This document shows positions 1 through 33,900 of a stretch of DNA of 49,342 nucleotides, piece by piece. How positions within the stretch are numbered: the stretch's first letter is position 1; each line of letters opens with the position of its first letter. The DNA comes from a virus, in the IMG/VR virus record IMGVR_UViG_3300048918_000241, positions 1 to 49,342 of that record. One strand, written 5' to 3'. The translations under genes and the position numbers were made by a program. The notes beneath the pieces are model-generated. The model was not told the origin of the DNA. It saw only the letters and a program-made list of their open reading frames with translations, and made no database searches.

Positions 1-692
1 GCACCGTCGGAGAGTCAATCGAAAGCAACCTGAAGACTGCGTTCGAGTCTCAGGGCTGGGAAGAGTTCCGCAAGACGGCGAATCCCGAGTACTTCGAAGC
101 ACTCGAGATGCACCCGTACCTGCTCGCTGGTCGCAAGGTTCCGAACCCCATCCAGGGTCAGCCGGATATCCTGCTCCGCGACTCCAGTGAAGCTCGCGAC
201 TGGCAGGAAGCCACGAAGCAGCTCATGGAAAAAGAGGTCGACCGGTTCGTCCAGCAGCGTCAGCGTGACGTTGCACCGGTCATGTCGGTCGTCCAGGACA
301 GCGTCATGCTGTTCCAGAACAATCCCGACCTGATCCCTGGCGGGAACCAGTTCGACCGCGAGCTCGCGACCCGTGTGATGGAGATCGGCCAGAACTACAT
401 CTACAAGGTCGGAGATCGTGTGATTGGCTTCCACGCTAACATGCAGCCGATCATCAACGCGGTCCGTGCGGACCTCGCCAAGTCTCGGGCAGGCGCAAAT
501 GGAGGCGCTGCTCGATCGGATCAGCAGCGACAGAATGCTGCCAACCAGCCCCGAACCGAGAGCGGTCAGTTCACCACTGACGCCGGTCCTCAGGCGGGTA
601 TCCAGTCCAAGACTGGCATGGTTGGCGACGAGAGCGACGACTACTCGGTCTTCCTCAACGCCATGGGCATGCCGTCGAACCTGATCCTCTAA
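1..692 (+). CDS. Virion or head-assembly protein, C-terminal part (5' end cut by window)
   Basis: An open frame runs in from the window edge (first full codon at base 3) and ends with TAA at 690-692, giving about 229 visible residues; the true start lies outside. The visible part is mostly helical and charged, with a middle block ending in FHANMQPIINAVRADLAK. A low-complexity Gln/Asn/Gly-rich linker follows (around residues 160-200 of the visible part) and contains PRTESGQF. I recognise no catalytic motif. It lies directly upstream of a small acidic gene and the terminase, where podovirus-like phages keep head or scaffold genes, so a structural or scaffolding role is plausible but unproven. 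The next gene follows after 18 bases with its own ribosome binding site. Confidence 0.7.
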   Translation, partial: TVGESIESNLKTAFESQGWEEFRKTANPEYFEALEMHPYLLAGRKVPNPIQGQPDILLRDSSEARDWQEATKQLMEKEVDRFVQQRQRDVAPVMSVVQDSVMLFQNNPDLIPGGNQFDRELATRVMEIGQNYIYKVGDRVIGFHANMQPIINAVRADLAKSRAGANGGAARSDQQRQNAANQPRTESGQFTTDAGPQAGIQSKTGMVGDESDDYSVFLNAMGMPSNLIL

Positions 693-4195: not shown

Positions 4196-5014
4196 TCAGT
4201 GCGCGTACTTGATGATGTTCTCGAGGATCTGCTCGACCTCATCGACGTCCAGCCCGAGCTGTTCTCCACGCAGACGGATCTGCATCTCCCAGTCCGGGTA
4301 GTTCGACGCGAACATCTGCGTCCCGATCGCGTACAGCCGCTGGTTGCGGGTACCGACCGGTGCACGCATAGCCAGCTGTGTTGCCAGCCGGTCGTGCACG
4401 ATGACGAGCTCGTCTTCCGATAGGCCAAGCGTACCACCTGCCGTCAGACGTGCGTTGTGCCGAATGCGCTGAGCGTTCTCCAGCAGAGCGTACAGCGACA
4501 TCGGCAGGTCTGCTGCCTTCATCCTGTTCCACTGCTGATTCGGGTAGTGGAACATGGCTCCAGTCCCACGCACGTCGATGCCAGGCAGCACGCCGTTGTG
4601 GTCCTCCATCTCAGCGAATCCTCGCTTCGAGTCGAACGATGCTCCCGGCACCCGATAGATCAGGTGCCAGCCGTTCCCGCTCTTGCTGCGCTCTGCCAGA
4701 GTCTCCGGCAACTGCAGCATGTTCGTGAATGCCTGCCCGTTGTTCTTGCCGTCTACATCGATGCAGACGAACGGGATGCTCCGCATCACGAATGCGAAGG
4801 GCTGCTGGTACTTCTCGAAGTAGCGCACCGAGCGGTCCGGATCGAACCGTCCCGCCTCGCGCTGCGTCGCCCAGTCCTTCGCTCCCCAGCCTGTCTCTGT
4901 GCCGCCCTTGCTGTAGACACGGATCAGGCTGAGTGTGCCGTATTCCTCGAACTCCAGAGGAACAGGCTTGTTGATGACATACTGCCTGTCATCCTCGTAC
5001 CACTGCTTCTTCAT
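4196..5014 (-). CDS. Primase-polymerase (archaeo-eukaryotic primase family)
   Basis: 272 residues. The core resembles bifunctional primase/polymerase (prim-pol) domains: the catalytic pair in FVCIDVDGKNNG (D86, D88), the histidine motif SGNGWHLIYRVP (H117) and the third acidic motif GIDVRGTGAMFHYP (D147). The C-terminal 80 residues are helical. It should synthesise primers for replication. Its start lies 26 bases inside the SF3 helicase gene, so the two are coupled; in many plasmids and phages prim-pol and SF3 helicase are fused, here they are separate proteins. GGAAGGA lies about ten bases before the ATG. It is the last gene before a strong intrinsic terminator. Confidence 0.85.
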   Translation of the reverse strand: MKKQWYEDDRQYVINKPVPLEFEEYGTLSLIRVYSKGGTETGWGAKDWATQREAGRFDPDRSVRYFEKYQQPFAFVMRSIPFVCIDVDGKNNGQAFTNMLQLPETLAERSKSGNGWHLIYRVPGASFDSKRGFAEMEDHNGVLPGIDVRGTGAMFHYPNQQWNRMKAADLPMSLYALLENAQRIRHNARLTAGGTLGLSEDELVIVHDRLATQLAMRAPVGTRNQRLYAIGTQMFASNYPDWEMQIRLRGEQLGLDVDEVEQILENIIKYAH

Positions 5015-6389
5015 CGGTTTCGTCTTCCTTCCCAGACTGTGCGATGAGCTCGATTGCCTGCAGTGTAGCAGGCTTGATCGAGGTAATCAGACGCCGGTTT
5101 GCCGGACGTCCATTCTCGCGCCGAACGACTCGCTCGATCACGAAGTGCTCCTTAAGCAGATCCCAGATGTCGTTGGCCGTACGGTCTCCGTAGCCCTGTG
5201 TGTGGAGCCACGGTTGCATCGAGTCCGCGAGCGTGTCTGCTCGGTACTCGCCACTCCGGAGGTTGTCCAGCAGTGTGCTGTCCTTACGAACCACATCCTC
5301 GAGATACGCCATCACTGGAGAGGTGTCGGCGATCTGCGAAATCTGCAGTCTTTCACTGAGGTTCGACGGCTTGAGCTTAACGGCAAGCTCATCCTCTGTC
5401 ACCCAGTGTTCCCACAGCAGAGTCAGGAGCGCATCGATCATACGATCGCTCTGCATGTAGGCGAGGAAGTTCAAGTCATCCTCGTATGTGTTCGGGAACT
5501 GGAAGCGAACGATGCGCTTCTGGATCGCCGCAGACTTGTCCCTGCTCTTCGGCTCCTTGTTGAGAGCCTCGATGAACAGTGCATTGGTCTGAACTTTGAA
5601 CGGCTCATTCTCGAACTTGATCTCGATGATCAGCGGCTCACCGGCGACTACGGTCTTCTCAGGACCGGACTCCGGAATGTACTGCTGTGGACCATCGAAT
5701 ACTACGTTCGCGAGCTTGTTGTTCAGCGTCTTCATGATCGGACGCTGAGCCGCCATCGCCTGCCTCTGCACACCGCTGATGTTGCTATCCCCCAGCAGCT
5801 TGTAGATCATCTTGAGCAACGTACCCTTACCGTTACGCCCATCGCCCAGCAGCAGTACATACTTCACTGCTGCCCACCCCGGCTGCAGCGCAGTCGCTAG
5901 GTGGTGAAGCAGGGAGTGTGCCTGCTCTGGACTGTTGAGCCACGATGAGATCGTCTTGAACAGCTCCTTGACGAGCTTGTAGTCCTTGTCCTCCTTCGGA
6001 ATGATCTCGTGCTTGATGTAGTTGGGCATGAAGTCGCCTGCCGTAAACGGCTGTACGCCCATGTCAGTGAGCATCCCCAAGCCACCGTCGTGCTTGATGA
6101 GGACGGCACTCTCAGGATTGTACTCCCGAGTAGCCATCTGCATCAGCATGTACCTGAAGTTCGAGAACTCTTGCGGCGACGAGAACAGCATGTCTAGTGC
6201 CCTCGCGCGTTGAAGCAAGCCCTCGGTATCCAGTTCCTTCCATACGGTGCGTTCCAATCTGGGGTTGTCCGCATCGGTTTCGTAGTCTACAGGAATGTAG
6301 ATCAGGCCCCGATACAGTCTCATGTCGATGACCTGAGCCATCGCCACAGCCACTGCGATCTGATCTGCCTTACTGTAGACCCTAGGCAT
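4989..6389 (-). CDS. SF3 replicative helicase (D5/P4-alpha-like)
   Basis: 466 residues. The Walker A is GDGRNGKGT (182-190) after a hydrophobic strand (YVLLL), the form typical of poxvirus D5 and phage P4-type superfamily 3 helicases. A Walker B-like strand follows (ANVVFDGPQQ, near 227-236), then a motif-C-like region (NALFIEALNKEPKSRD) and a basic winged-helix-like C-terminus (residues about 375-450). The N-terminal 150 residues match the D5 N-terminal helical region in layout. It should unwind DNA at the fork together with the overlapping primase-polymerase. The ATG overlaps the end of a 46-residue gene upstream. Confidence 0.9.
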   Translation of the reverse strand: MPRVYSKADQIAVAVAMAQVIDMRLYRGLIYIPVDYETDADNPRLERTVWKELDTEGLLQRARALDMLFSSPQEFSNFRYMLMQMATREYNPESAVLIKHDGGLGMLTDMGVQPFTAGDFMPNYIKHEIIPKEDKDYKLVKELFKTISSWLNSPEQAHSLLHHLATALQPGWAAVKYVLLLGDGRNGKGTLLKMIYKLLGDSNISGVQRQAMAAQRPIMKTLNNKLANVVFDGPQQYIPESGPEKTVVAGEPLIIEIKFENEPFKVQTNALFIEALNKEPKSRDKSAAIQKRIVRFQFPNTYEDDLNFLAYMQSDRMIDALLTLLWEHWVTEDELAVKLKPSNLSERLQISQIADTSPVMAYLEDVVRKDSTLLDNLRSGEYRADTLADSMQPWLHTQGYGDRTANDIWDLLKEHFVIERVVRRENGRPANRRLITSIKPATLQAIELIAQSGKEDETDEEAVVRG

Positions 6390-9296: not shown

Positions 9297-11546
9297 TCAC
9301 TTGATATATCGGTAGGCAGACTTAACGTCCACCGCCAACGGGAAGTCAGGCAGACGACACGTCGTCATAGCCTGTCTGAACTGCTCCTTGACCCAGTCCT
9401 CGTTGTGACATGCTTCCTGGGGAACCCAGTCCGCATTGATCTCATCATGGAACTGTCCCATGATCCTGACGTTCCGCTCATTGCGGAGCCGGAACCTCAG
9501 GTCAGCGAGGCTGTCGAAGAACATCTCACGACACAGCGACTGTGTCAGGATGCCTGCGACCTTGCCACCGTAGATGCTGTAGTACGTCTCCTTCTTCGTC
9601 TTCGGATGCTGGTAAGTTGCCTTCCACAGCTCTCCGTTGAGGCGCTCTGCAGGCTTGTAGTAGCAGAGCTTGTCTCCACGGAAGTAGCACCCGTGAACGA
9701 AGCGCGTCACGAACGGCATGCCGTCCGGAAGCAGAATCTGAATGCACAGCGACAACGAGCCGGGGTGCTGTGCACTCATGGACGGTAGCTCGAACGGGCT
9801 GAAGCGTACGATCAGATCGTGACCGATCCGACCCTCCATGATCTCGTTGTAACGTACTGCATCCTTCAGCAGTCCGTCCAACTTGTACCAGAAGTCCACG
9901 ATCTTCGGGTTCGCACCACGCCAGTTGCTCACGTCCTCCAGCGCTGTTTCCAGCGTGACCTTGAAGCCAAGGCGGAACATGAAGTCCTGGACTGCAGACG
10001 CCGAAGCCTGGTAGCCACAGCTCAGCTCCGAGTACTTGCCTCTCGGTCGCTGCTCCTTGGTAACCTCTTCGTACGGCACGCCGAAGTACTTCGATGCCAG
10101 CACCTTGTACACGTCCTTGCCTTCCCTGTAGGCGTCGAGTTTCCACTCTTCGCCTGCGAGGTAGGCCAGTCCGCGCGACTCCACTGCGCTGAAGTCACCG
10201 ACGATGATCTTCCCGTCAGGTTCACTGGCTGTGAAGACCTGACGAAGTTGACCTGCCATGTCGACGTTGGTCCACGTTGTTGTCAGGTCGAAGACCGAGT
10301 CAACTTCACGGACGGGGTTACCGTCCGCGTCCACGACGAGCTTAGCGATGTTCTGCATCTGCACGCCGCGTCCCGTGGTACGCAGAGTCTGACCAGCACC
10401 ACAGTGCATGTACTGGTCTCGGAGCTGTCCGTCCTCACTCACGAGGTCCAGGATCTTCGGCAGCTTACTTAGCGTGCTTCCACCCATCTCTCGCTTGCAC
10501 TCCAGCAAGGCCTGCACCTCACGGAGCTTACGGACCTTGCGCTCTGCCTCTGGCGACAGCTGACCCAGCATGTCACGCCGCCAGACCCAGGTGTCTTCTG
10601 ACACCGTCATGACCAGCGGCTCGTCGCCTTCGGGCTTCAAGTCCTCAGTCATAGTGGTCAGGATGTCATCCCTGACCTTGTCGAGCAGGACAGGCAGGTT
10701 GTACTTGTCAAGGCTCTTGACGCGTACGCCCCGATCCTCGCAGTACTTCTTCAGCTGTGCTGGCGAGTTGAAGTTAATAACCTCGCCAGTCGAATCCATG
10801 AACTTCTTCTGCTCGATAAGACCGTTGGCCCACGCCCTCGTCTTCATCTTCTTGACGAGAGGCAGGTCCACCGTCCAGCCAGCCTGGTTCTGCTCCCACG
10901 TTGCCTGCTCGTTGTACGCCTCACGGATCAGCAGCATCGGGTCGAACTGGTCCACAAGCTTCTGTGCGACCAGCCGAATCTCTCTGCTACCCTTAGCGTC
11001 CATCTCGCAGTACTCGATGAAGCGCATCCACTTATTCATGTGCCCGTGCTTCTCGATCAGCTCCGGAGTTGGCCCATCCGGATACCACTCGTTGGGTACA
11101 CAGAACAGCATGACGAGGTCGTTGCCTTCCTCCAGCTTGTGGCTGTTCGTCAGCTGTCGCGATGCCACGATGAGCTTGGACTCCGCACCACAGATGCGAG
11201 CGTCCACAGCACTGTCCTCGAACTTGAACGGGTCAAAGTCCGCGTACCACCAGTGCGTGACCTCGCGCTCGAACGGAGCGTTGTGTGCCATGATTGGACC
11301 CTGATTGGCATCTGCCAACCAGCCTTGTAGACCGTTTGAGACTTCATCACGGTCATGCCCCAACGCATTGACTGGGTTACCTCGTTTCCAGATAGTCCCG
11401 AAGATCCAGTCGTAGGTGAGCTCGCCGTCTGCGTCCGCCACGCTACAAATGAGCGTCTTGAACTCAGGATCAGCAACGTAGTTCGCCAGGCCCCGCACCG
11501 GAAGATTGGTGCGGGACCAGGTCTCGTAGTCGAGTCCATACGTCAT
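9297..11546 (-). CDS. polA: DNA polymerase I (family A) with 3'-5' exonuclease
   Basis: 749 residues. An N-terminal proofreading domain shows Exo I (GLDYETW, D6/E8), Exo II region (MAHNAPFE) and Exo III (YCEMD, D183). The polymerase domain shows motif A (VGDFSAVESRGLAYLAGE, D451), motif B (RPRGKYSELSCGYQASA, near 500-515) and motif C (GQFHDEINADW, H700-D701-E702). There is no room for a 5'-3' exonuclease domain, as expected for phage replicative polymerases. It is coupled to the gene upstream through an ATGA overlap. With the primase, helicases, resolvase and nuclease of this arm it makes a near-complete phage replisome. Confidence 0.97.
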   Translation of the reverse strand: MTYGLDYETWSRTNLPVRGLANYVADPEFKTLICSVADADGELTYDWIFGTIWKRGNPVNALGHDRDEVSNGLQGWLADANQGPIMAHNAPFEREVTHWWYADFDPFKFEDSAVDARICGAESKLIVASRQLTNSHKLEEGNDLVMLFCVPNEWYPDGPTPELIEKHGHMNKWMRFIEYCEMDAKGSREIRLVAQKLVDQFDPMLLIREAYNEQATWEQNQAGWTVDLPLVKKMKTRAWANGLIEQKKFMDSTGEVINFNSPAQLKKYCEDRGVRVKSLDKYNLPVLLDKVRDDILTTMTEDLKPEGDEPLVMTVSEDTWVWRRDMLGQLSPEAERKVRKLREVQALLECKREMGGSTLSKLPKILDLVSEDGQLRDQYMHCGAGQTLRTTGRGVQMQNIAKLVVDADGNPVREVDSVFDLTTTWTNVDMAGQLRQVFTASEPDGKIIVGDFSAVESRGLAYLAGEEWKLDAYREGKDVYKVLASKYFGVPYEEVTKEQRPRGKYSELSCGYQASASAVQDFMFRLGFKVTLETALEDVSNWRGANPKIVDFWYKLDGLLKDAVRYNEIMEGRIGHDLIVRFSPFELPSMSAQHPGSLSLCIQILLPDGMPFVTRFVHGCYFRGDKLCYYKPAERLNGELWKATYQHPKTKKETYYSIYGGKVAGILTQSLCREMFFDSLADLRFRLRNERNVRIMGQFHDEINADWVPQEACHNEDWVKEQFRQAMTTCRLPDFPLAVDVKSAYRYIK

Positions 11547-19189: not shown

Positions 19190-19247
19190 ATTGTTCCTCG
19201 ATCCATTGTAGTGCAAGGTCGACGATATCGTCCTCGTCAGATGACAT
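19146..19247 (-). CDS. Possible 33-residue acidic protein
   Basis: Leftward ATG 19247 (MSSDEDDIVDLALQWIEEQ), stop at 19148-19146. It overlaps the end of the HTH-like gene by 11 bases and the start of the membrane-protein gene by 44 bases. The peptide is an acidic amphipathic helix with coding-like composition, but it has only a weak ribosome binding site. Confidence 0.35.
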   Translation of the reverse strand: MSSDEDDIVDLALQWIEEQYEAVHVAGSARPSR

Positions 19248-19821
19248 GGCGTGCCAGAGCTGTATCCAGCTCCGCAACCAGCTGACGCCTCAGCCAGTCC
19301 TTGTGTGCGCGTACGATCTCGTTCGGAAGCCAGCCGTCTTCTAGCAGGTCTGCACCTGCCTTCAGCATGGCTGGATCCGACTCGTTGGCCTCAGTCCAAC
19401 GAGACCAGATCTCGCTCTGTTCTTCGTCCGTAAAGACGTCGAACAGGTTGTCGATGTGGCTCCGTCGAAACTCCTGAGCCACGTAGTTTGCTCTGCCCTT
19501 GCCACGACTCGCAGGCATGCCCACGCTCTCGCGATGTGCAGCCCTTGCTCGCCGGTGCTGGTCATATGACAGCCCCGGATACTTGGTTGCGATGACTTCC
19601 AGCGTAACGCTGTCATCCTCGTAGTCCCGCAACAGCTGGCCTTCGCCGCTGACATCTCGACTCCTGCGTCCCTTGGGAGTCGGCGGCAGGTTCTTTGCCT
19701 TGCGATATTGCCTGCGCCGACGCACGATCCAATCGAACGTGTACTGCGGGAACAGGTCGAAGATCTGAAGGTTCGTCAGACTGTCGTCTTCGAACGCTTC
19801 CTCGATACTCATCTCGCTCAT
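19237..19821 (-). CDS. Protein with duplicated HTH-like module
   Basis: 194 residues, GGAGGA before ATG 19821. It has two related segments, residues about 11-52 (EDDSLTNLQIFDLFPQYTFD, then Arg-rich, ending LPPTPKGRRS) and about 68-110 (EDDSVTLEVIATKYPGLSYD, then Arg-rich, ending MPASRGKGRA). Each looks like a helix-turn-helix with a basic tail, so the protein may bind two adjacent DNA half-sites. The C-terminal third is helical and acidic. It is near the start of the leftward arm, a suitable place for an early regulator. No named family. Confidence 0.75.
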   Translation of the reverse strand: MSEMSIEEAFEDDSLTNLQIFDLFPQYTFDWIVRRRRQYRKAKNLPPTPKGRRSRDVSGEGQLLRDYEDDSVTLEVIATKYPGLSYDQHRRARAAHRESVGMPASRGKGRANYVAQEFRRSHIDNLFDVFTDEEQSEIWSRWTEANESDPAMLKAGADLLEDGWLPNEIVRAHKDWLRRQLVAELDTALARHVI

Positions 19822-20264: not shown

Positions 20265-20335
20265 GTTCTCTCATTCTCCTCATTAGATAGAAAACCTTTT
20301 GTCTCCTATTCTACCGAAAAACATTTCCAATTGTA

Positions 20336-20369
20336 GCAACACAGCAGTGTTGCGCTCACAGCAGTGAGC
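20336..20369. repeat. Two adjoining hairpins with the same AGCA loop
   Basis: GCAACAC-AGCA-GTGTTGC (20336-20353) is followed with no gap by GCTCAC-AGCA-GTGAGC (20354-20369). Both share the ten-base core CACAGCAGTG, while their outer stem bases differ yet still pair. They lie 70-105 bases before the first leftward gene. Candidate operator, protein-recognition or hairpin-promoter element. Confidence 0.7.
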
Positions 20370-20494
20370 CTACAACAGTGAGACAAAGCATGAACGGGTC
20401 TATGAGATGACGTGAAACGAGATGTAAACAACCCAACAAACCACCGCCGCTTGACTAGTACTTGTGCCAAGTCCTGATCGCACTAGGCTGGTGC

Positions 20495-20666
20495 GACAAG
20501 CTCTGCGACGAAGTGTAGCAGAGCTGTCACCAATCGCATATCGCTTGGATTAGTAAACAAATTGGTGGCATGACCCCATGTCTCCCATGGTCAGGGCTGC
20601 TCACTCTAATTGTGTATCTTGTGTATCACTCAAAACAATACGTTTTATCGCGGAACACTATGATCT
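20495..20666 (-). ncRNA. Candidate structured ncRNA, left copy
   Basis: Read leftward from 20666, this 172-base stretch is homologous to the right copy (20749-20925): both start AGATCATAGTGTT, share AAGATAC-type and CATGCCACC-type blocks, and are similar along most of their length. Hairpins occur at matching places: 20571-20593 (CCATG stem with two extra bases bulged), a CTAATC/GATTGG stem (20532-20555) and a final stem GCTCTGC (20500-20506 with 20518-20524, extended outward to GAC/GTC). The matching reading frame contains stops, so it is not a protein gene. RNA function is inferred from conserved pairing. Confidence 0.5.
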
Positions 20667-20670
20667 GAGC

Positions 20671-20706
20671 TGTGTACATGTACTTCAGATTGAAGTCATG
20701 TACACA
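20671..20706. repeat. Strong hairpin near the centre of the palindrome
   Basis: Arms 20671-20687 and 20691-20706 pair with a single bulged T (left arm TGTGTACATG T ACTTCA), loop GAT. A weaker counterpart, TGTAT with ATACA (20711-20715 and 20732-20736), lies in the mirror position. Both sit between the two homologous ncRNA-like arms, where divergent promoters or an origin would be expected. Confidence 0.7.
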
Positions 20707-20748
20707 AGAGTGTATAGAATTTGGAAAAGATATACATAGAGAAATTTG

Positions 20749-20925
20749 AGATCATAGTGTTATTTGATGAAACTGCTAGTTTTGCCTGATATGCAAGATA
20801 CGCGATTAGTTGCAGCCTACCTGTCCATGTCTCGCATGGAGACATGCCACCTATTTGTTCTCCTATCGTGCATGATACGCGATAGTAAGCGTACCAAAAA
20901 TGACGAGCTCAATACTGAGCTCGTC
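20749..20925 (+). ncRNA. Candidate structured ncRNA, right copy
   Basis: A 177-base rightward element, inverted homologue of 20495-20666. Hairpins: CATGTCTC (20826-20833) with GAGACATG (20839-20846); CTATCG (20863-20868) with CGATAG (20880-20885); final GACGAGCTCA (20902-20911) with TGAGCTCGTC (20916-20925), then TTAAATAATT, which could act as a terminator. GATACGCGAT occurs twice (20797-20806, 20874-20883). A 60-codon frame lies here, but its left-copy counterpart has stops and changes are not biased to third codon positions. Confidence 0.5.
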
Positions 20926-20955
20926 TTAAATAATTCAAAAATGTAATTAAAAATG

Positions 20956-20982
20956 ACACAATGTGCATGCTGCACATTGTGT
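20956..20982. terminator. Bidirectional intrinsic terminator
   Basis: A perfect 12-bp stem (20956-20967 with 20971-20982) closes the loop TGC. Rightward it is followed by TTTCTATTTTTG; leftward it is followed by CATTTTTAATTACATTTTTG. Both directions therefore have a T-run. It insulates the ncRNA-like core from the element at 21008-21076 and from the leftward gene beyond. Confidence 0.75.
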
Positions 20983-21007
20983 TTCTATTTTTGATTTTCA
21001 TCATTGA

Positions 21008-21076
21008 CCACGTCTTAGTTTGGAGTCTCGCCACTAGTCAGTGGCGCAAGCGCAATAAGCTAGAACAAAGACGTGG
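21008..21076. other. 69-base closed stem structure of unknown role
   Basis: An outer 9-bp stem CCACGTCTT (21008-21016) with AAGACGTGG (21068-21076) encloses an inner perfect hairpin CGCCACT-AGTC-AGTGGCG (21029-21046), then GCG-CAA-type repeats. It does not have the T-loop or anticodon arm of a tRNA. Possible small RNA or protein-binding site; no family is recognised. Confidence 0.45.
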
Positions 21077-21116
21077 AATGGTGGTATTCTCGTTACATTG
21101 TTGTTTATAAAAAGAA

Positions 21117-21138
21117 ACAAGTGGCTAATGCCACTTGT
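21117..21138 (-). terminator. Intrinsic terminator of gene 21158-21505
   Basis: Leftward ACAAGTGG-CATTAG-CCACTTGT (8-bp stem) followed by TTTCTTTTTATAAAC, 19 bases past the stop of the leftward gene. The T-run marks the direction. Confidence 0.85.
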
Positions 21139-21157
21139 CTCTTATTGAAGCTCAGGC

Positions 21158-21968: not shown

Positions 21969-24900
21969 GTGGCGAAAGACTGGTCCGCATTCGGCGGCAC
22001 GAGTTCGGACCAGCAAGGTCCTGCTTCCCAGCCTGCTCCTCAGCGCACGAACTGGGCCAAGTTCGGTGGCGGTGGAGTCCAGGACAACTCCAGCCCGAAG
22101 GCACTGAGCGGTGGGCAGCGCGGAGATGTCGCCAACTCGTTCGACAACAAGTTCTACGAGACGTGGAACAAGCAGATCGACGAGCAGAACAAGGCTGGCA
22201 AGGCCCTCGACATCTACGGTCGCAAGGACTTCACAGGTATCGTCACTCGCGATGACTCGAAGTATGGTGTCCAGTTCGGTGACGTGTACCGCGACGGCCA
22301 GAAGCAGTACAACCTGTTCCAGGACCCTGAGGTAGACAAGCAGTCGGCGTACCAGCTGATGGGCCGTGTCACTCTGTCGGACGACGAGCTGGCCCACGCT
22401 GGTAACACCGACCGACTCGCTGAGATGGTCGACAACAAGCGACTGGCGAACGAGACGGACGCAAGAGCAGGCCGGTCAGCCCGCGAGTTCCAGGACCAGG
22501 TCGACGTCCAGAAGGACAAGAACACCAAGAGTGGCTTCCAGGATGCGATGATCCCTGTCGCAACCGGTGCCGGTGGTGCCGTGACCGCGATGGGCGCTGC
22601 TGCAGCCATTGCGGCTTCGACCGGCATCGGCGCGCCCCTCGGCGTCCTGCTCGGCATCGGTGCTCTTGGTGCCGCTGCTGGTGTTACCGGTGGCGTCATG
22701 AACCGCGACCTGATCCAGGAGAACATCGCGCGCCAGCAGGTCCTCATCCGGACCGCAGAGATGCGCAAGCCCGGTGCAGGTGTCGCCCAAGCCCTGCAGT
22801 CGTTCGGGCAGGTCTACGGCCAGACACTCACCCCTGCTACCAACATCGTCATGGGTGGCCAGGACCTCATCGCAGGCGGAGGGAAGTGGAACAATGAGTC
22901 CGACTGGTACGCCGTCAACCCCGAGACCGGACAGTCCCTCCGCAACGGTTGGTGGGATGTTGCCCGATTCGGTGCGGGCGTGGTTGACTCGTTCGGCTCA
23001 AGTGCAGGGGCCGGTCGAGCGGCTTATCTTGGGAGCATCGGGTCCCAGCTACTTGGTCAGGGTTCCCAGCTGGCCTACCAGGGTGAGGTTTTCAACGACC
23101 GATCCGGCAAGTTCCAGTCGATCTACACCAACGACCAGGGCGAGGCTGATCCCTTCCGTGCTGCCTCTGCTTGGGGCTCGTTCGGCATCGATGCCATTCA
23201 GTCCTTCGGATTGCAGGGAATGCTCAGTGCTTCGGCTCGCCGTGGCGCTGGACTTGGCCAGCGACTTGAGCGTGAAGAGGCCGGAGGCTTCAACTTCAAG
23301 CTCGACGAGCAGGGCCGAGCCGTTGGTCGAGCTTCAATTGCTCCCAGCTTCTTCGCACCCAGCGAAGCCTTCCGAGGTATCGCCGCTGGCTCGCTTGCTC
23401 GTATCCGAGCCGGTGGGGCGAAAGTTACTGCAGATGATCTCTACCAGTCCATCAAGCGGCTTGAGGGCAAGGCTGGTGCTGGTTGGGGCGCAACACTTGT
23501 CACCGGCTTGTCCGAGGGTTACGAAGAAGGCGTCCAGGAAGTTCTGAACCAGTGGGCTACAGGTAGCCCCTTCGACCTGGACTCCATCGTTCAGTCCGCG
23601 ACCCAGGGCCTGTCCATGGGTCTCGGCATGGGCGCTGGCGGTGCTGTCATGGCCCGCACCGGCGAGAAGCGCATGAAGGCCCAGGCCTACGCCGCCCACG
23701 TGATGCTGCGTGGCGAGCAGACGAGCGACGAGCGCAAGGCCTGGGAGAAGCGCTGGAGCGGCTTGACTGACACGCAGAAGCGGGCTGAGGCCACGCTGAA
23801 CTCCGTGCAGACCCAGGTCATGAAGCAGGCCGTGAACAACGCTGGCCTCAAGCAGGCTCGCACGATCGCGACCAACGACCCTGCTGCCCAGGACCGACTC
23901 GACACCGCCCGCCTGGCGCTCGCCGAGCAGACGATGCGGAACGCCGCGCCGAACACGAAGTCGTATGTCCGCATTACCTCGTTCGAGGATACTCGGATTC
24001 CCGGCGACCGCATCCAGGTCTCGGCGAACCGCGCCAACATGATGCTGGTCGACCAGCGCACTGCCCTGGCACTCATGGCGCAGGGCGGTGCTGCCGACCA
24101 GCAGATCGACCCCGCAATTCAGCAGCTCGCCGGTCAGTCTGTCACGCAGCTCGATCTGCTCCTGCCCTGGATGCGCAACGCGGCTCAGGCCTACAGCCAG
24201 GGCAACTTCGGTACTCGTCGCGCTGTGGTCGAGTCGGTCAACGCAGTGCTCAACAACTGGGCAACGGGCCAGCCGGTCGACACCAACGCGAACGTGCCTG
24301 AGGCCCTGATCACGACAGACCCCGAGACGGCCCTGGCCCGCGCCTATGCAGTCAGCCTGAACTTCGCTCGCGACCCGATCGACCAGGACATCAGCTTCCA
24401 GCTGCTCATCCCGATGATCTCGAACAAGATGTCCGAGATGGGAGCAGACCAGACGGCGCAGGTGTCCTACAGCCTGCTCGAAGCGATCGGTGGCGACTTC
24501 GATGGTGACCGCATCCGGTCGGTCCAGCGACTTGCGACGACCCCGGACCAGTTCGTGCGTGCCCGCAGTGGCGAGCGCTCCATCACAGGTGTCGGAGAGC
24601 GCAAGGACGGTGTCGGCGGTCGCGAGTCGATGATCGCAGTTCGTCACTTCGAGGAAGCGTGGCTCGAGACCTACCGTGAGGCAAACTCGTCGGCTCAGCT
24701 GACTGACCTCCTGCTCTCGACTCGTCGCGAGATTCGTGCCGCGATCGCTGCCCAGGTCGACGACAGTGTCGAGATGAACCGCCTCATCACGCTGGCGTTC
24801 GTGCAGATCCGCAACGGCTCCACGGATGCGATCCGCGACTTCGTTACAGCCGTGATGCGTGAGCCGGAGCTCGCCAGTCGCCTGCTCGCCAAGGGTCGGC

Positions 24901-27900
24901 AGGAGCTCTTCAACGTTCCCGAGCGCCTCAACCGGCTCTTCAGCAACGGCATGGCAGAGTTCAGCGAGAAGCTGGCCGTCGTCAAGGCTCCGGACCCTGT
25001 TCCGTTCCGTCCCAAGGACCCAATCCCTGCTCGCCAGGGCGGGCCTGTCATCCGTGAGCGTGCTGCCGCGACCCGTGGGCGCACAATGTTCCTGCAAAGC
25101 CCTGCGGCCGATATGTTCCGCATCTTCCAGGAGCTTCGCTACAGCCCGCTCCGTACTCCCGTCGAGGCTCGCCACCACGTCAATCGGGAGGAACCGCTCC
25201 TGGCTGAGCTGCAGCAGTTGTACCTGCAGCTCGGTCAGGGCGAGATCGAGTCTGCCCTCGACCAGGCGTACGCCGACTCTGAGGTCAATGCTCGTGTCGT
25301 GACCTGGCTCCAGGCCATGTCAGACGAGAGCGCCGTGAACGGTGAGCGCATTCCGGTCGCCGTCCTCGGCTCCATGGCTGTTCCGTTCTTCGACAATGGT
25401 GAGCAGCGCGGCTGGGTCACGCTGACTCAGTCCCTGCTTGCGCGGTCACTCGACATCGACGAGGCCAAGTATGGCCCGCTCATCGAGTTCGACGTGAACC
25501 TCCAGGCTCGGTTCGCCAAGCTCAAGAAGATGACCCAGCCTGGTCGCACTGACGCGAAGGCACCGATCCACCGCAAGAACGCCGGTGCGGCCTTCGTCTA
25601 CGTGTTCGGCCAGATGTCTGTCGCAGACATCGCGGGTGAGGGTGTGACCGCCAACGACAACGTGACGGTCGACCAGCTCTACCGCTCGTACTATGGCCAG
25701 GATTACCGTGGCCGCCACTCCTGGATGCAGTCTGCCAAGGCGACCGAGAACTACCCAGAGCGGATCACCGAGCACGACCTGCCCTACACAGAGGCGCACG
25801 CGCGTGAGGCAGGCGTCACGCCGTGGAAGGCTCTCGTCGACTCCATCGAGGAAGCTGCCAACTTCGACCTCAGCACGAACGACAATGGCGACCCGATCGG
25901 CGAGTCCGCCAACCAGTCGCGCGAGGTCTCGAAGCAGGTCTGGAACATCGTCGAAGAGATCCACCAGGGTATGCACGCCGCCGCTCTGCCGGAGCAGCGC
26001 ACACTCACTCTGGAGAACCTGCAGACGTTCCTGCAGCAGAACCCGAGCATCAGCCAGGCAGTCATGTCCCTGGCGGTCTACGACCCCAAGATGGTCGGTG
26101 TCTTCTCCGAGCGCACGGAGCGCAACGACGACGGTAACGTCGAGACCCTCATGGCTCCGTGGCTGTACGAGGCTCTGCTCATGGAGCCGAAGCAGGCCGA
26201 GCTGTCCATCCTGCTCAACTCGGCGATCCTGAGCTACCGCGCTCTGTCTGTCCAGACGCGCACCGACCTCGAGAACCCGGACAACCAGACTGGTCACGTC
26301 CGGGACTACGAGAAGCTCGACGACCGATTCCACCAGCTGTTCTTCAAGCTGGCAGCAGGTGACCCGACCGGTCTGAACGAGGCTCGCTTCTTCAACAAGG
26401 TCGAGGAGATCTTCAACAATGGCGGCGGAGTCGAAGACTTCATTCGTCTCCTGAACAACGAGTATCGTGGCAACCAGGCTCCGTTCGTGGCCTGGTACCG
26501 CGACGTTGCCTCCTTCGATGCCAACGCGATGCTCCGCTTTGGTGCACCGGTCGCGGGCACCGAGCAGCGCAAGGCGATCTCGGACCTCCAGATCGCGACT
26601 GCCGGTATCGCGAAGACGATCCGTGACGAGCAGCTCGCCCAGGCTGACGTGAGCGCCCAGCTCTCGCAGGCTCGCGACGAGCGCAAGCAGGGTGTCATCA
26701 GCGACAACGGCCCGCGCATGGCGCTTCGCGATGCCATTCAGTTCGCGCGACAGTTCGAGGTTGGCATCGGTGCCAATGAGATGCTGGACTCGCTGTCCGC
26801 CGCACTCCAGACCTTCTACGCGAAGGCAGCAGACAAGGGCGTTGGCCCCGACGAGTACGCTGCTGCCGCCGCGATGGACGTGATGTACCAGGAGTTCGCG
26901 ATCAACTACGTCCGGGTCGACACCAGTACCGGTGTCATCGACCTCGACACGGTTATCAAGAACCCACAGATCCTGCTTCGTGGCCCGATCACGATCATGG
27001 ACCGCTTCGGCAACACGTTCGAATGGCTCCCTGAAGACCCCAGCCTTCAGGATCAGGATGCGATCGAGGATCGTATCATCAATCAGCTCGAGGACTTCGT
27101 TCTTGACAACTGGGAGGGCCAGAAGCGGAGCGACAACAACCCGCTTCAGGCTCAGGGCGTCGCGCAGAGCGTCATCCGCCGTATGCTTGAGCCTTCGGTC
27201 TGGCAGATGACTGCCGACGGTCGGGGCTTCCAGCAGAGGAGTCTGGTCAGTGACAGTCTCTCAGGGATGCTCTCGCGCGACGCCTACAGCCGTCTGTACG
27301 GAGACAACAACGCTCCCGTCGAAGAGCAGGACTCCGGCAGCATCACAGACTGGATCGGTCTGGTCAACAGCAGCAGCAGCACCTTCGGCGGCGACGTCGA
27401 GGTTCAGCGCTACCTGGGCCAGTACCTCGCGACAGCCGCGTCCAGCCTGGAGCACCTGACTGCCAACGAGGCTCAGGAATTCGTTCGCAAGACGACAGTC
27501 GAGTTCGGCTACTTGCTCCAGAAGGTTGGCGATGTTGTCAACCGTTACGCAGACTCCGACTGGAACATGCCGCTCGACTACGTCGACGAGGACGGTAAGG
27601 CGATCGACCTGCTCACGAAGCAGCGTAACGCGGCTCGCAAGGAGATGCGGGACCGCTGGCTGAACCGTCGCTTCGGCGAGGGCATCGGCCCTGCTGCCGG
27701 TCAGCTCATCGATGACTGGATGCTTCAGGAAATCAACCAGGTCACGACTGCAGCGGTCACCGACACGCAGCAGAACGCCTGGCAGAAGGCCGTGAGCGAG
27801 AACCGTCGCGATGACGCACAGGCGATCATGGACGAGATCAAGGCGAAGATCGACGATCCGCTGATCAAGTCCCATATCGCCAAGGCGGAGTTCATCCGCA

Positions 27901-30900
27901 ATGTCTATGTGACTCACGAGCCCATCAAGGCGCTCATCACAATGTTCGGCTACCCTGCTGCAGGTGACGGCGACGCGAACGCCGCCCGCCGTGAGCTCAT
28001 CAAGTCCTACGTCGACGGCATGGGTACAGAGCTCGTCAACCGCAACCCGTGGGCTGACAAGTCGCTGTATCGCATCCAGAACAGTATCGACTCCGGCACC
28101 ACGTCTGTGCCCGAAGAGGACTGGAACGCGGCGTCCCGCGCTCTTATCGCGTGGCACGTGCTCAACATCGCGGGCAACCAGGGTGCATCCGAGATTTCGA
28201 CTGACGAGTTCCCCGCCCTGGAGACTAAGGACGGCGAGCTCAGTGACGCTCTGAAGACCTGGGATCCGTCGAACCAGTATATGTTCGACAAGATCTTCGA
28301 CGCGAAGTCGCCGATGGTCCGCGCCGCCGCCTACATCTCCGGCCAGTCTCGTCGTGGCAACGTGCCGACGATCCAGGATCTCGGGTACGCCCTTGACACC
28401 GGTCTCGGCCACGAGGACCGGCTCCGCAACTGGACGCTCATGGTTCCCGCGAGCGCACGCGAGGACCGAGCTCGCTACGACGCCGACAGCGCCCAGTTCC
28501 TCGTCGCAATGGCAGGCCAGCCGCAGGACACTGTGGCACTGGCCGCCGCGTCTGCCACCGACTTCGACCTCGGCAAGGTCGCCCAGGTCGGCGGACTCGA
28601 CGCCAACGTGGTCAGCCTGTCGCTCGCAGACGAGAAGGGCAACACGCCGCCCATCACGGTCGCCGACATTGTCTACGGCAACCCGCTTCGTCTGCCGCTC
28701 CAGGACAGCAACGGCAGGATGATGCCCCTGGCGAACCTCCACGGTAGGTTCGTGAAGGAGATGATGGTCGGCGGTCAGCCCTTCGACATGACCCACGTCG
28801 CCATTCAGCACCCTGAGAGCGGCTACTGGGTCCTCGACCTCGACCAGCTCCGCGCTGTTCTCAAGAACGAGGACCGCACGACGACCGTCGAGTTCTCGCT
28901 CGTGACCCAGGCAAGCAAGCAGGTCACGGCGAAGGGCAAGATCACTGGTCTCGCGCACAGCCAGTACTTCGACGGTGTCATTGACCCTGTCACTGACATC
29001 AACACTCCCCGCTCGCTCATCGGCGCGCGCCTCAGTGCTGCAGGTGGCTCTGGTCGTGTGGAGCAGCAGAACGCTCTCCAGGCCAGCAAGAAGGGCAAGC
29101 GTGCCCTGAAGCGGGCCACGATGTTCTCTCGTCGCCAGCGCGCCGTCATGGAGACCTCGTGGGCCACGGACCTCAACAAGGTCCTGCACCTGAAGGCCAT
29201 GGCAGTCTCCGAGAACGGCCTGAACCTCAAGGAGAACGACTGGCGGTTCTACAACGCCGACTACAAGCTCCAGGAGATGAAACACTTCGTAGTCTCCGCA
29301 AAGGGCACGTGGTCGGCTCAGCAGGTCATCCAGTGGCAGGCTGAGAACCCCGGCGTCCCGATCACCGACGACGCGGCTCTTGGCCCGGACGCCAAGCTCT
29401 TCGTCCCCAGCATCGGCAAGCTTCGCGCGATGTACGGTGACATCGGACCGTCCTCGATCAACCTGCCGACCAACGCAGTGTGGACTGGCGACCCGACCGA
29501 CATCCCTGTCTTCGATGGCGTCACGACTGCTCCGCTCATGCAGGAGGTTCCCGGTGTCCTGAACCCGACTACTCTGTCTCTGCTCGACACCGAGTTCGGT
29601 GCACGCCGACCCTTCACGCGGTACTCCGGCACTCGGATGCACACCACCGAGCGCATGCACGAATGGGACCAGCGTCTGCGTCTGCGCGACCAGAAGCGTG
29701 CGCGCATCGACACCGACCGACTCAGCAACCCGCAGTTCAACGCTGAGCGTATGTCCGAGCCCGGTCGTAAGGTCCTTGCCGAGACCATCCAGGCCGCACC
29801 GAACTTCAACTGGCGTGCTGCCGGTGTGCCGATCAACGCTCATACCAGCCCGACCGACCAGGCTCTGATGTCTCGCGCGGCCAATGACCTCGTGACTGCG
29901 ATCTCGCAGGATGGTCGCAAGATGATCTTCCTGTTCAACGAGGTCGACAGCCGTCGCAACCCTGGTGACGGCGTCCTGACCGCCGCGACCTACGAGAACG
30001 GCTTCCCCGGCATGGAGCCGGGTCCGAACGATCTCGTGGTCCTCAACGTCGACTCCTTCACCAAGGAGCAGCTGAGCGACGGTACCGCCTTCAAGCGGCT
30101 CGAGATGGTCATGCGCTCCGGTGCTGACGTGTTCATCGCTACCACAGCAGACACGACGAACCAGGGCATCCTGTCCCGGTACATGGCTCAGAGCCAGGCT
30201 TACGAGCAGGTACCCGGTACGCCCAACCTGTTCCAGGAGCGCAACTACGTCGCTCCTCGTTCGACCGACACCGAGTCGCTGGTCTCCACGCTGACCAGCA
30301 TGAACCCGATCAGCGGCGAGAACAAGTCCATCCTGTTCCACGGCTTCAACGTCGAGATGGACGAGAACGGTGCGGGTATCAAGAACCCGCAGAACATGCT
30401 CAAGGAGCGCGCGGTCGTCACCAACATCGTGCCGACCCGCATGTACCCCGGTTTCAGCCTCCCGAAGACCTCGAAGGCCCAGCTGCAGGTGCTGCGTAAG
30501 GTCAACGAGCTCTTCGAGCAGAAGCCTCGCTGGATGAACGACCACGAGTACAACTCGCTCAAGAAGCTCAAGGGCAAGTATGACGCCATGCGCAACGGCG
30601 GCGAGTTCCCCATGGGCCAGCTCGAGCGCGGCGACCTGATCCCGCTCGTCCGGCAGCAGCCGAGTGGTGAGATCGACATCTACTTCAGCCGGTACAAGCA
30701 CGAGGATGAGCGATGGAGCGACGTTCTGAAGCAGCTCGACGACCAGAAGGGACTCGCCGTCAGCCACAAGCCTGTCTCGACGAACTTCACTGGCTTCGAG
30801 GGGTATGTCGAGAAGCTGGAAGCCAGCAGCAAGCACGGAGCACGTGTCCGTATGCGCGTGAAGCTGGCCCAGTTCGGCGACAAGCGACAGGTCGCGCTCG

Positions 30901-33900
30901 CTGGTATGAAGTACGTTATCTCCGCCATTGGGCTCGATCGCTTGCGGATGCCTTCCACAAGCCTCACGCCCGACAAGGATATCGACTTCGTATCCGACTT
31001 CGCTAGCCTGCAGAGCAAGCACGCCTACCAGGGTGTCATCAAGAACCACCGCACGGCTATCGTCGGCTTCGGGTGGGACATGTCGCAGAAGCTGCTCCAG
31101 GCCTTCCGCGAAGCTGGCAACCCGCAGATGACCGAAGCAGAGATGCGTGAGATCCTCAAGCGATTCGCCGACACTGCCGGTGGCAAGTCTGCTGCGTACC
31201 TGCGTGAGCTCATCTCCGACCGTGCAGAACTGGCGGCTGTCATGCAGTCTAACGGCTCGCCGATCGACTTCAACCAGCCGTCGCCGCTGATCGGCTACGT
31301 CGAAGCCACGCTCGTGTACCTCATGGGTGCCGAGCGTACTGGACCGAACGACAATCCGCTGGATCACATCCTCGGACCGTTCGGCGGGCTGCTCCGTGAG
31401 CAGGAGTTCATGGGTGCCACTGCTCAGGAGCTGCCTCGCCTCTTTACCGAGTACTTCGACAACCTGCCTCCGCAGCACGAGACTCGTCAGGATATCCTGA
31501 AGGAGTTCCAGGCTCAGCTGAACCGTGACAAGAATGGTTACTACATTCTGAACCCGGACTTCACGGTGACTGCCGTCACGACCAAGGGCGGCAAGATCAC
31601 GAAGGCAGAGACCGGTCGCCTGCAGATTGCAGAGGTCAACAGCACTGGCGACAACCCGACCTTCGACCGCTTCGCAGAGCAGTCGGCGGGTAACTACGAG
31701 GACTGGTCGCCGCACACCGCCGCTCTCGCAACGACTGCCCTCGGTACGACTCTGGTCCGCAACAAGGACCTGCAGTCCGCCGTGTGGCGCGCTGTCACCG
31801 CCGAGGGCGTACCCGAAATCGCCCTCGGCGGTGCGTCCGGCGCGACCCTGCTCAACGCGATGATGGACATCGGTGCAGACGCAGGCTACAGCCAGTACCA
31901 GTGGAACGCCGACAACCCGGCTCAGGAGTGGTACCGCACCCAGAGCCTGAACGTCGGCCACGCCTACCGTGTTGGTGTCAACACCGACCGCTGGAAGTTC
32001 GATGATGACGAGCCCGGCAAGCAGGCCGGTCGCGAGCAGCAGTACTCTGCGATCGTCGACAAGATCCTCGGCAAGCTTCACCTGAACGTCAACACTCAGC
32101 GCGACCTCGTTGACTACTGGGTGCGCCAGACGATTGGACAGTTCGGCGAGAAGGATCCGGAATCGAAGGCAGGGGACGTCACGTTCGACCTGGCGATGCA
32201 GGCCGCGACCGACATCCTCTACAACGTCGAGCACTACGTCCTGCCTGTCGTGGACGCTGACGTGCCGCTCTTGCACCGTGATGACCTCGCCGCAATCTTC
32301 GACGCGAACCGTGACCACCCGACTCCCTGGCTTCTGCGCGAGGGTGTCGACGTGAACACCGACATCTACCGCTCGAAGACCGTGCTGCCGAGCGACTGGT
32401 CTGGATTCGTCCACGTCGCTCTCGGCACGGCAGAGACCGGCCAGATCAGCTTCGACCCGATGAATGCCATGGCGACGGACGGCATCCTGCAGTCCTACGC
32501 TATCGGTGAAGACGCTCTGCGTGGCCTGCCGATCTCTCGGTCGGACCTCGTTGAGGCGAACCTCTGGGACCCGCAGACATCCCGACTTGTCATCAGCATC
32601 GACCCGCGACGGAACGACTTCGCGAGTGAGCCGATGATCCTCGATCCCGCGACGACGACGCTTGGCAATATGTTCGGCATTGAGCGCCAGGGGAGCAGGT
32701 GGCAGGGTAAGCGTAACCTGTCACCGGAGCGTCGTCGTCGCGACTCCTACCGCCAGAAGTACCGCAAGGAGCGTGGACTCGCTTCTCCCGTCGAGACTGG
32801 CATCCGCAACTACCGCCAGGTTGGCGCGCAGTGGATCAGCGAGTCAAACAACGTGAACGGCGTTGTGCAGGCCGTCCACGACCTCCGGCACTTCACGACT
32901 CTGTTCAACCCGTTCCTCTGGCTCGGTGCAGGCGTTGAGCTCACCGTACGCAACGTCCAGGACGATATCGTTGGTGCGATCATGGGCACTGGACACGGTG
33001 CGAGCCAGCGGCTCAACCCGGTCAACTGGAATAACGAAGAGGGCAAGGCCCGCATCGCGCAGTTCAAGGCGTCGCAAAAGGCTCTGGCCACGAACCCGCA
33101 GTTCGCCGGTATGCTCTACGCCGACATGCAGTTCAAGGATCCGCACATTCGTCGCAACTGGATCACCAAGTTCACCGGCTTCCTCGGCAAGTCCGGTGAC
33201 TGGATGCAGGACCCGACGTACGGTCAGCCGCAGTACGTCATGGCCCGTCGCTACCTCGAGGCCGTGCTGGAGTACATCCAGAACAACGGCATCATCATGA
33301 GCGAGGGCAACCTCCTGTTCCAGCTAGAGCACAACCCGCAGTGGGTCCGGCAGAACCTGAACGACGCTCACCGCTCTGCGACTGCTCGCATCTCCAACAT
33401 GCGGTCCCTGAAGATGACCGCGATGGGCCTGGCGATCAGAAGCATCTACGAGATCCCGTCGAACGCCAACAACAACGGTATGCGCATGTTCGGTCAGCTG
33501 TTCCTCAAGACGCCGCTCATGTACAGCGGCTATCTGGCGAACGTCGCGACCAACATGCTCGGTCTGAACACCGCGAACAATATTATCCTGATGTACCTCA
33601 ACGGTCGCAAGGCTGGCAAGTTCGCTCAGCGTGCTCTCGGTGAGGCGTTCGTCAAGGATGGGCAGATCGACTTCAGCGGCATCCTCGACACTGTGGACCT
33701 GACCCGCTCGATGGTCTCGGACGGTGTCAGCCTGTCCGCCCTGTTCTTGGCTGCTGCCTTTGCCGGTTCGACTGGTCTGGCGAGCGGTGAGGACGACGAA
33801 GAGCGTCGCCGTCGCCGCGCCATGCAGTACCAGCAGGCCGGTATCGTCTACGACCCGCGTCAGATTGCCAACGACTGGCGGAACAACGAGGCGATCTACC

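Follow-up and report, generated by a model that had tools for sequence, protein, structure and literature searches.

In the satellite phage P4, short iterons are bound by the C-terminal domain of the primase-helicase (alpha), with the sites split over ori and the distant crr. In the HSV oriL and SV40 origins the initiator sites are arranged with two-fold symmetry about a centre rich in A+T, and the initiators are helicases. The origins of PICIs consist of two iteron sets flanking an A+T-rich region, as described in a report in which P4 alpha and its ori are also mentioned (PMC6092414). In PLE, the satellite of ICP1, the iterons lie in a non-coding region, and the DNA-binding domain of the initiator and the origin change together (PMC8263062).

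The locus described here is a large imperfect palindrome in the IMG/VR virus record IMGVR_UViG_3300048918_000241 (positions 1–49,342; hereafter, the window, meaning the whole stretch of 49,342 nucleotides that was analysed). We interpret the palindrome as a predicted phage origin of DNA replication, a double-stranded DNA site of PICI/SaPI-like design, and assign this reading a probability of roughly 0.75. It has clustered, oriented copies of a short word at one locus and, judged by composition, an adjacent A+T-rich unwinding region, as do iteron-type origins. As in PICI/SaPI origins with a Pri-Rep initiator, two iteron sets flank the A+T-rich region, although for the window by itself the evidence for tandem pairs is weak. 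A homologue of the SF3 helicase-type initiator, here a predicted initiator, is present with a primase partner, and the nearest structural relative of the phage SF3 protein is the SaPI5 primase-helicase (PDB code: 7ola).

In comparison to the PICI/SaPI class, in which the origin lies immediately 3' of rep, the SF3 gene (4989–6389) is remote from the palindrome at 20.5 kb, and the satellite lifestyle (integrase, Stl-type repressor, helper phage) gives way to that of a lytic podovirus with structural genes. The iterons form tight inverted pairs with 8–10 bp spacing, there are extra CATG-N5-CATG dyads with reversible cores, and the arms are diverged inverted copies. Because adjacency to rep and the satellite lifestyle are both lacking, the palindrome is not filed as a member of that class, for all its likeness. 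The resemblance to P4 lies in the short iterons and in their predicted binding by the C-terminus of a primase-helicase, but here the sites occupy a single palindromic locus. With HSV oriL and SV40 only the layout is alike, the initiators and sequences being unrelated. PLE similarly carries iterons in a non-coding gap; these are, however, semi-palindromic, about 30 bp long and served by a RepA_N initiator rather than SF3. The literature searched yielded no published replication origin for the phages considered here, and the present reading proposes an origin and an initiator for dozens of sequenced actinobacterial podoviruses that have no annotated origin. Were free-living lytic phages to share such a layout, they would form a link between phages and satellites.

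The gap and its inverted duplication

The tail and capsid proteins encoded in the window match those of Microbacterium podoviruses of the Eekayvirinae (cluster EK) and Burrovirus, and the phage has portal, capsid and tail genes of its own; judged by these matches, it is a relative of these lytic podoviruses. In PMC7302621 the EK phages are described as lytic and no repressor or integrase is reported for cluster EK and Burro; PMC8281081 describes EK2 genomes as lytic and circularly permuted. The gap that concerns us is mentioned in neither, in the parts consulted. Three IMG/VR contigs (L188, L189 and L190) encode an SF3 protein 100% identical to that of the window over the match and, on this identity, represent this phage or an almost identical one from other samples.

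The palindrome lies in an unannotated gap near which leftward and rightward gene blocks diverge. A rightward gene of 13.5 kb, with a 4519-aa product, starts just past the gap.

20265–21157, no strand assigned: unannotated gap holding the palindrome (893 bp, between two leftward genes; syntenic in relatives)
20495–20666, minus strand: left arm of the inverted duplication (local alignment and self-BLAST)
20749–20925, plus strand: right arm of the inverted duplication (local alignment and self-BLAST)
20654–20666, minus strand: left copy of the perfect 13-nt inverted repeat AGATCATAGTGTT, at the start of the left arm
20749–20761, plus strand: right copy of the perfect 13-nt inverted repeat AGATCATAGTGTT, at the start of the right arm
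20902–20925, minus strand: hairpin resembling a terminator of leftward transcripts, at the right arm's end
20955–20983, no strand assigned: terminator-like hairpin seen on both strands, insulating the palindrome

Counterparts of the gap were identified by synteny in Eekayvirinae, Burrovirus, an Arthrobacter phage and IMG/VR relatives, where they measure about 0.8–1 kb, occupy an equivalent position and are unannotated or nearly so. A nucleotide search of the gap against phage records returned no match, and homology was therefore followed through synteny and layout. For one distant relative, no counterpart was located in the examined stretches of the contig behind L139. A search for tRNA and tmRNA genes gave none, and Pfam and PHROGs searches with the giant protein and the genes neighbouring the gap gave nothing convincing.

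The reverse complement of the left arm aligns locally with the right arm with a score of 345, versus 166 ± 17 (maximum 222) for 500 dinucleotide shuffles. When the region is searched by BLAST against its own genome, each arm recovers the other from the complementary strand, with E 2.9e-20 and 66% identity across 304 nt. These results bear out the original prediction, in which the arms were given the coordinates listed above and were said to begin alike and to align along most of their length: the 13-nt repeat is perfect in both, and the blocks GCAGCC, CATG, GCCACC and TTTGTT are common to the two. The stem pairing that had been singled out, CTATCG/CGATAG against CTAATC/GATTGG, is likewise present. 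Of the paired end stems, the right one (20902–20925) can also be read as a terminator of leftward transcripts and the left one has no T run. The view that the palindrome is a genuine, selected, structured inverted duplication is supported.

Iterons and their layout among relatives

Iterons, dyads and an A+T-rich core were mapped within the palindrome.

20534–20542, minus strand: outer left iteron GATATGCGA (word search)
20576–20590, no strand assigned: left dyad CCATG-TCTCC-CATGG (from the sequence)
20610–20618, minus strand: inner left iteron pair, copy 1, GATACACAA (word and layout scan)
20619–20627, minus strand: inner left iteron pair, copy 2, GATACACAA (9-bp spacing)
20628–20787, no strand assigned: A+T-rich core, predicted melting region (160 bp, 66% A+T)
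20788–20796, plus strand: inner right iteron pair, copy 1, GATATGCAA (word and layout scan)
20797–20805, plus strand: inner right iteron pair, copy 2, GATACGCGA (9-bp spacing)
20825–20839, no strand assigned: right dyad CCATG-TCTCG-CATGG (from the sequence)
20874–20882, plus strand: outer right iteron GATACGCGA (word search)

All six copies of the word GATAYRCRA in the 49-kb genome lie inside the palindrome, three on the minus strand to the left and three on the plus strand to the right. Shuffled gaps contain at most two copies (mean 0.08), a comparison that measures clustering and not discovery, as the word was derived from these same copies.

The comparison took in 30 relatives, many of them closely related, so that the independent units are some eight to ten lineages and not the genome count. 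The layout common to them comprises two outward-pointing iteron pairs, 8–10 bp apart, flanking an A+T-rich core (cores 57–68% A+T, in genomes of about 40% A+T). Iterons round a central core were present at the corresponding position in the first 20 relatives examined, and the iteron word differs by lineage, with at least seven words in all. Akonivirus has GGTTAC, and Tinytimothyvirus and the EugeneKrabs group have GGTTCG/GGTTCA; in their gaps a left-pointing pair 9 bp apart is followed by a core of 71–83 bp and a right-pointing pair 8–9 bp apart. IMG5/6 carry GTCTACG pairs 10 and 8 bp apart around a longer core. EugeneKrabs and Zhengyi are filed as Akonivirus and KingKamren has no genus (loci L144, L145, L150 and L153); all three phages contain the Tinytimothyvirus iteron word. 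EugeneKrabs appears as a mosaic, its left half and giant gene resembling Tinytimothyvirus (84% versus 28%) and some of its tail genes being closer to Akonivirus.

A blind scan used geometry only: the reverse complement of a word x at i and i+8..10, and x itself at j and j+8..10, with 30–190 bp between. Of 26 gaps, 24 matched exactly, and for any one of them no more than 2 of 200 shuffles did so. Burrovirus served as the held-out case, its three gaps having been fetched after the rule was formed, and all three match, with the word CGTTACC. Five further lineages reached via the giant protein match as well (L167 with CACGC, L172 and L176 with GGTTAC, L177 with GGAAGAAC and L178 with TGATACAC), compared with 0–3 of 500 shuffles. 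As a control, 2 of 268 segments of 950 bp from elsewhere in six phage genomes match the layout. A distant IMG relative also agrees.

In the window, the tandem-pair layout requires one mismatch, at which 20 of 200 shuffles (10%) match too, and taken alone it is weak. The same holds for Arthrobacter phage MissAmericana, which matches with one mismatch, as do 17 of 200 shuffles (8.5%). The layout of the window accordingly rests on synteny, on the six exclusive copies, on a TTTTGAGT lead-in common to the window, L167 and IMG6, and on L178. The last of these has the core word of the window, TGATACAC, in 12 copies, all in the gap and nowhere else in its 9.2-kb locus. In the 40 kb of Akoni that were searched, seven of nine GGTTACGC copies are in the gap, and a collection-wide scan with CCATGNGAGACATGG gave one match per contig among the matches listed. 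The constancy of layout and position despite the different words in relatives argues for a DNA origin rather than for paired non-coding RNAs.

The layout could conceivably serve another nucleoprotein complex, as any oligomeric DNA-binding protein could use such an arrangement of iterons. The palindrome would then be a centromere-like site, a packaging site, or a region that controls the divergent gene blocks as an enhancer or operator, and its ligand would be a phage protein, for instance an HTH-like neighbour. By eye, the product of 19237–19821 (minus strand), encoded next to the gap, resembles an HTH protein; some relatives have a gene annotated for a DNA-binding protein nearby; and the gap is not far from where leftward genes give way to rightward ones. 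We consider this alternative unlikely. Among the genomes searched, relatives of the neighbour occur only in L167, L168 and, weakly, L178; four of eight genomes have no match and a fifth has only a fragment with stops, but all of these have the layout. The genes examined include no ParA/ParB, integrase or repressor, and the EK phages are lytic according to PMC7302621. Also against this alternative, the terminase gene of Akoni, at 51–53 kb, is far from the gap at 16–17 kb, and there are terminators between the palindrome and the gene to its right.

Replication proteins and the predicted initiator

The leftward block of replication genes encodes a PrimPol, an SF3-type protein (DUF5906; PHROG DNA primases), an SF2 helicase, a family A polymerase (9297–11546) and a Cas4-like exonuclease. 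Two of these are the predicted initiator and its predicted primase partner.

4196–5014, minus strand: PrimPol (PF09250), predicted primase partner of the SF3 helicase (family search)
4989–6389, minus strand: SF3 helicase, predicted origin-binding initiator with a winged-helix-like C-terminus at residues 372–438 (profile and model)

A profile of the SF3 protein searched against the PDB matches 7ola with E 5.7e-11. An AlphaFold2 model was calculated from an alignment of nine sequences (pLDDT 72.7), and the best Foldseek match is the SaPI5 primase-helicase (E 4e-13), followed by ASFV PrimPol and vaccinia D5. The model ends in three helices and two strands and then a helix, as a winged helix would.

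We infer that the SF3 protein binds the iterons, that the core melts and that replication starts at the palindrome. The helicase would bind the inner iteron pairs (20610/20619 and 20788/20797) through its C-terminal winged-helix-like domain, with the outer iterons and the CATG-N5-CATG dyads assisting. Two helicase rings would assemble face to face across the core, melt it, and leave it in both directions, while PrimPol would lay primers for the family A polymerase to extend. Among the points against an origin, the predicted initiator gene is 14 kb from the palindrome, whereas PICI origins adjoin rep, and the GC skew shows no switch at the palindrome. The AT skew is confounded by gene direction.

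The SF3 protein of the L178 phage, which has the iteron word of the window, is 52% identical to that of the window, versus 36–41% for other distant genomes. The rise includes the C-terminal region (residues 361–410, 40% versus 19–28%), and is not seen for PrimPol (41%, others 34–45%) or the SF2 helicase (38%, others 34–41%). The SF3 proteins of L168 (70%) and L167 (67%) are closer still, yet their iteron words differ, and the link between SF3 protein and iteron word, drawn from one discordant genome, is for that reason suggestive only. EugeneKrabs was also considered as a case in which replication genes might track the iteron type, but is not decisive since its whole left half resembles Tinytimothyvirus. 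One layout with at least seven iteron words and a matching set of SF3 proteins offers a natural experiment on how such initiators read DNA.

Dyads, base pairing and the giant protein

CATG-N5-CATG dyads usually bracket the iteron layout in relatives. The dyad core is NGAGA or its reverse complement, and Eekayvirinae gaps hold up to six dyads, compared with two in the window. In Burrovirus the dyad is degenerate, and in the distant IMG relative another element (CCCCTGGTA/TACCAGGGG) is found at similar places; the dyads are thus not an invariant part of the layout. The core reads TCTCG in EugeneKrabs (L144) and Pabst (L142) and CGAGA in BlueRugrat (L015) and TinyTimothy (L141), at matching positions whose flanks are almost the same, as though the interior of the short palindrome were inverted. 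One would not expect a loop recognised by an RNA-binding partner to withstand such flips; a site recognised in double-stranded DNA would, and so would a hairpin that can be read from either strand. A composite origin is conceivable though doubtful, in which iterons read by sequence are combined with dyads read by structure, the latter extruding as DNA hairpins within the large palindrome (for example as priming or loading sites for PrimPol). We know of no described phage origin with this design.

In the original prediction the arms were candidates for a pair of related, structured non-coding RNAs, each read away from the centre, on the strength of compensatory changes in their stems. Each arm does fold somewhat better than shuffles (z −2.8 and −2.3). 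The two-arm consensus fold (−21.0) is better than that of column shuffles (−11.8 ± 3.1, P about 0.007), but the excess of two-sided changes, 6 versus 3.0 expected, is not significant (P 0.09). Among three lineages (the window, L167 and the IMG5/6 arms), two-sided changes are seen in 8 of 13 pairs (P 0.007), and the opposite strand of the same lineages also gives six (P 0.02). The words that change (GCTTCTAAT in IMG and CGCGTTTTAT in L167) are in addition direct repeats within an arm. Given this recurrence and the signal on both strands, concerted change of repeated protein sites explains the data equally well.

Other evidence leaves a pair of RNAs very unlikely. The region has no match in Rfam at the gathering threshold, and promoter-like sequences in it do not exceed chance. 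The dyad cores occur in both orientations at equivalent sites. Covariation is lacking over most of the dyad flanks, where bases beyond CCATG/CATGG pair no better than they do when partners are shuffled. The constant orientation and 8–10 bp spacing of the iterons while their sequence varies fit a protein on duplex DNA. When a repeated site changes in concert in inverted copies, the outcome looks like compensation, and the palindrome shows how this can mimic compensatory RNA base pairing. The paired RNAs of the original prediction are therefore not borne out, whereas the cruciform and the replication start that it named as alternatives point in the right direction.

A positive control was provided by a hairpin at 21029–21046, which covaries clearly in these phages (five of seven pairs two-sided, with up to four pair types). 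It belongs to an element at 21008–21076 that is kept in the relatives examined, in which the hairpin is followed by GCAAGCG and then CTAG. The element has no match in Rfam and is a better candidate than the palindrome for a structured RNA (or a DNA hairpin).

The giant 4519-aa protein (21969–35528, plus strand) has an invariant D-x-DGD motif, with R-x-P upstream, in 15 diverged homologues. The 50 best PDB matches of its modest AlphaFold2 model (pLDDT 66.8) are all RNA polymerases, but with weak E-values of 0.01–0.07 and low TM-scores, and on this model the protein is a candidate virion RNA polymerase carrying an RNA-polymerase beta'-like domain. In phage P23-45 the virion RNA polymerase is fused to the tape measure protein (PMC10770324), an arrangement that the giant protein of the window recalls. 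PMC7302621 calls the role of the giant protein unclear and notes that it lacks similarity to the N4 RNA polymerase.

The palindrome might on these grounds be a promoter or loading region for such a polymerase, with hairpin promoters as in phage N4. The invariant motif and the fold matches would agree with this, as would the sharp difference in the giant protein between GGTTAC and GGTTCG phages (28% versus 84%). The iterons, however, lie at one locus in mixed orientation and not before several genes, and better promoter candidates are two small hairpins with a conserved loop (20336–20369), at the gap's left edge. We regard a promoter at the palindrome as highly improbable, and the reading as an origin is retained. 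These two hairpins stand in tandem ahead of the leftward operon; their loop, AGCA/AGCC, is conserved, and the distance from loop to loop is 17 nt. The 17-nt hairpin pair is also present in Morrill, EugeneKrabs, TinyTimothy and Pabst, with stems that vary between phages, and possibly represents hairpin promoters or leader elements.
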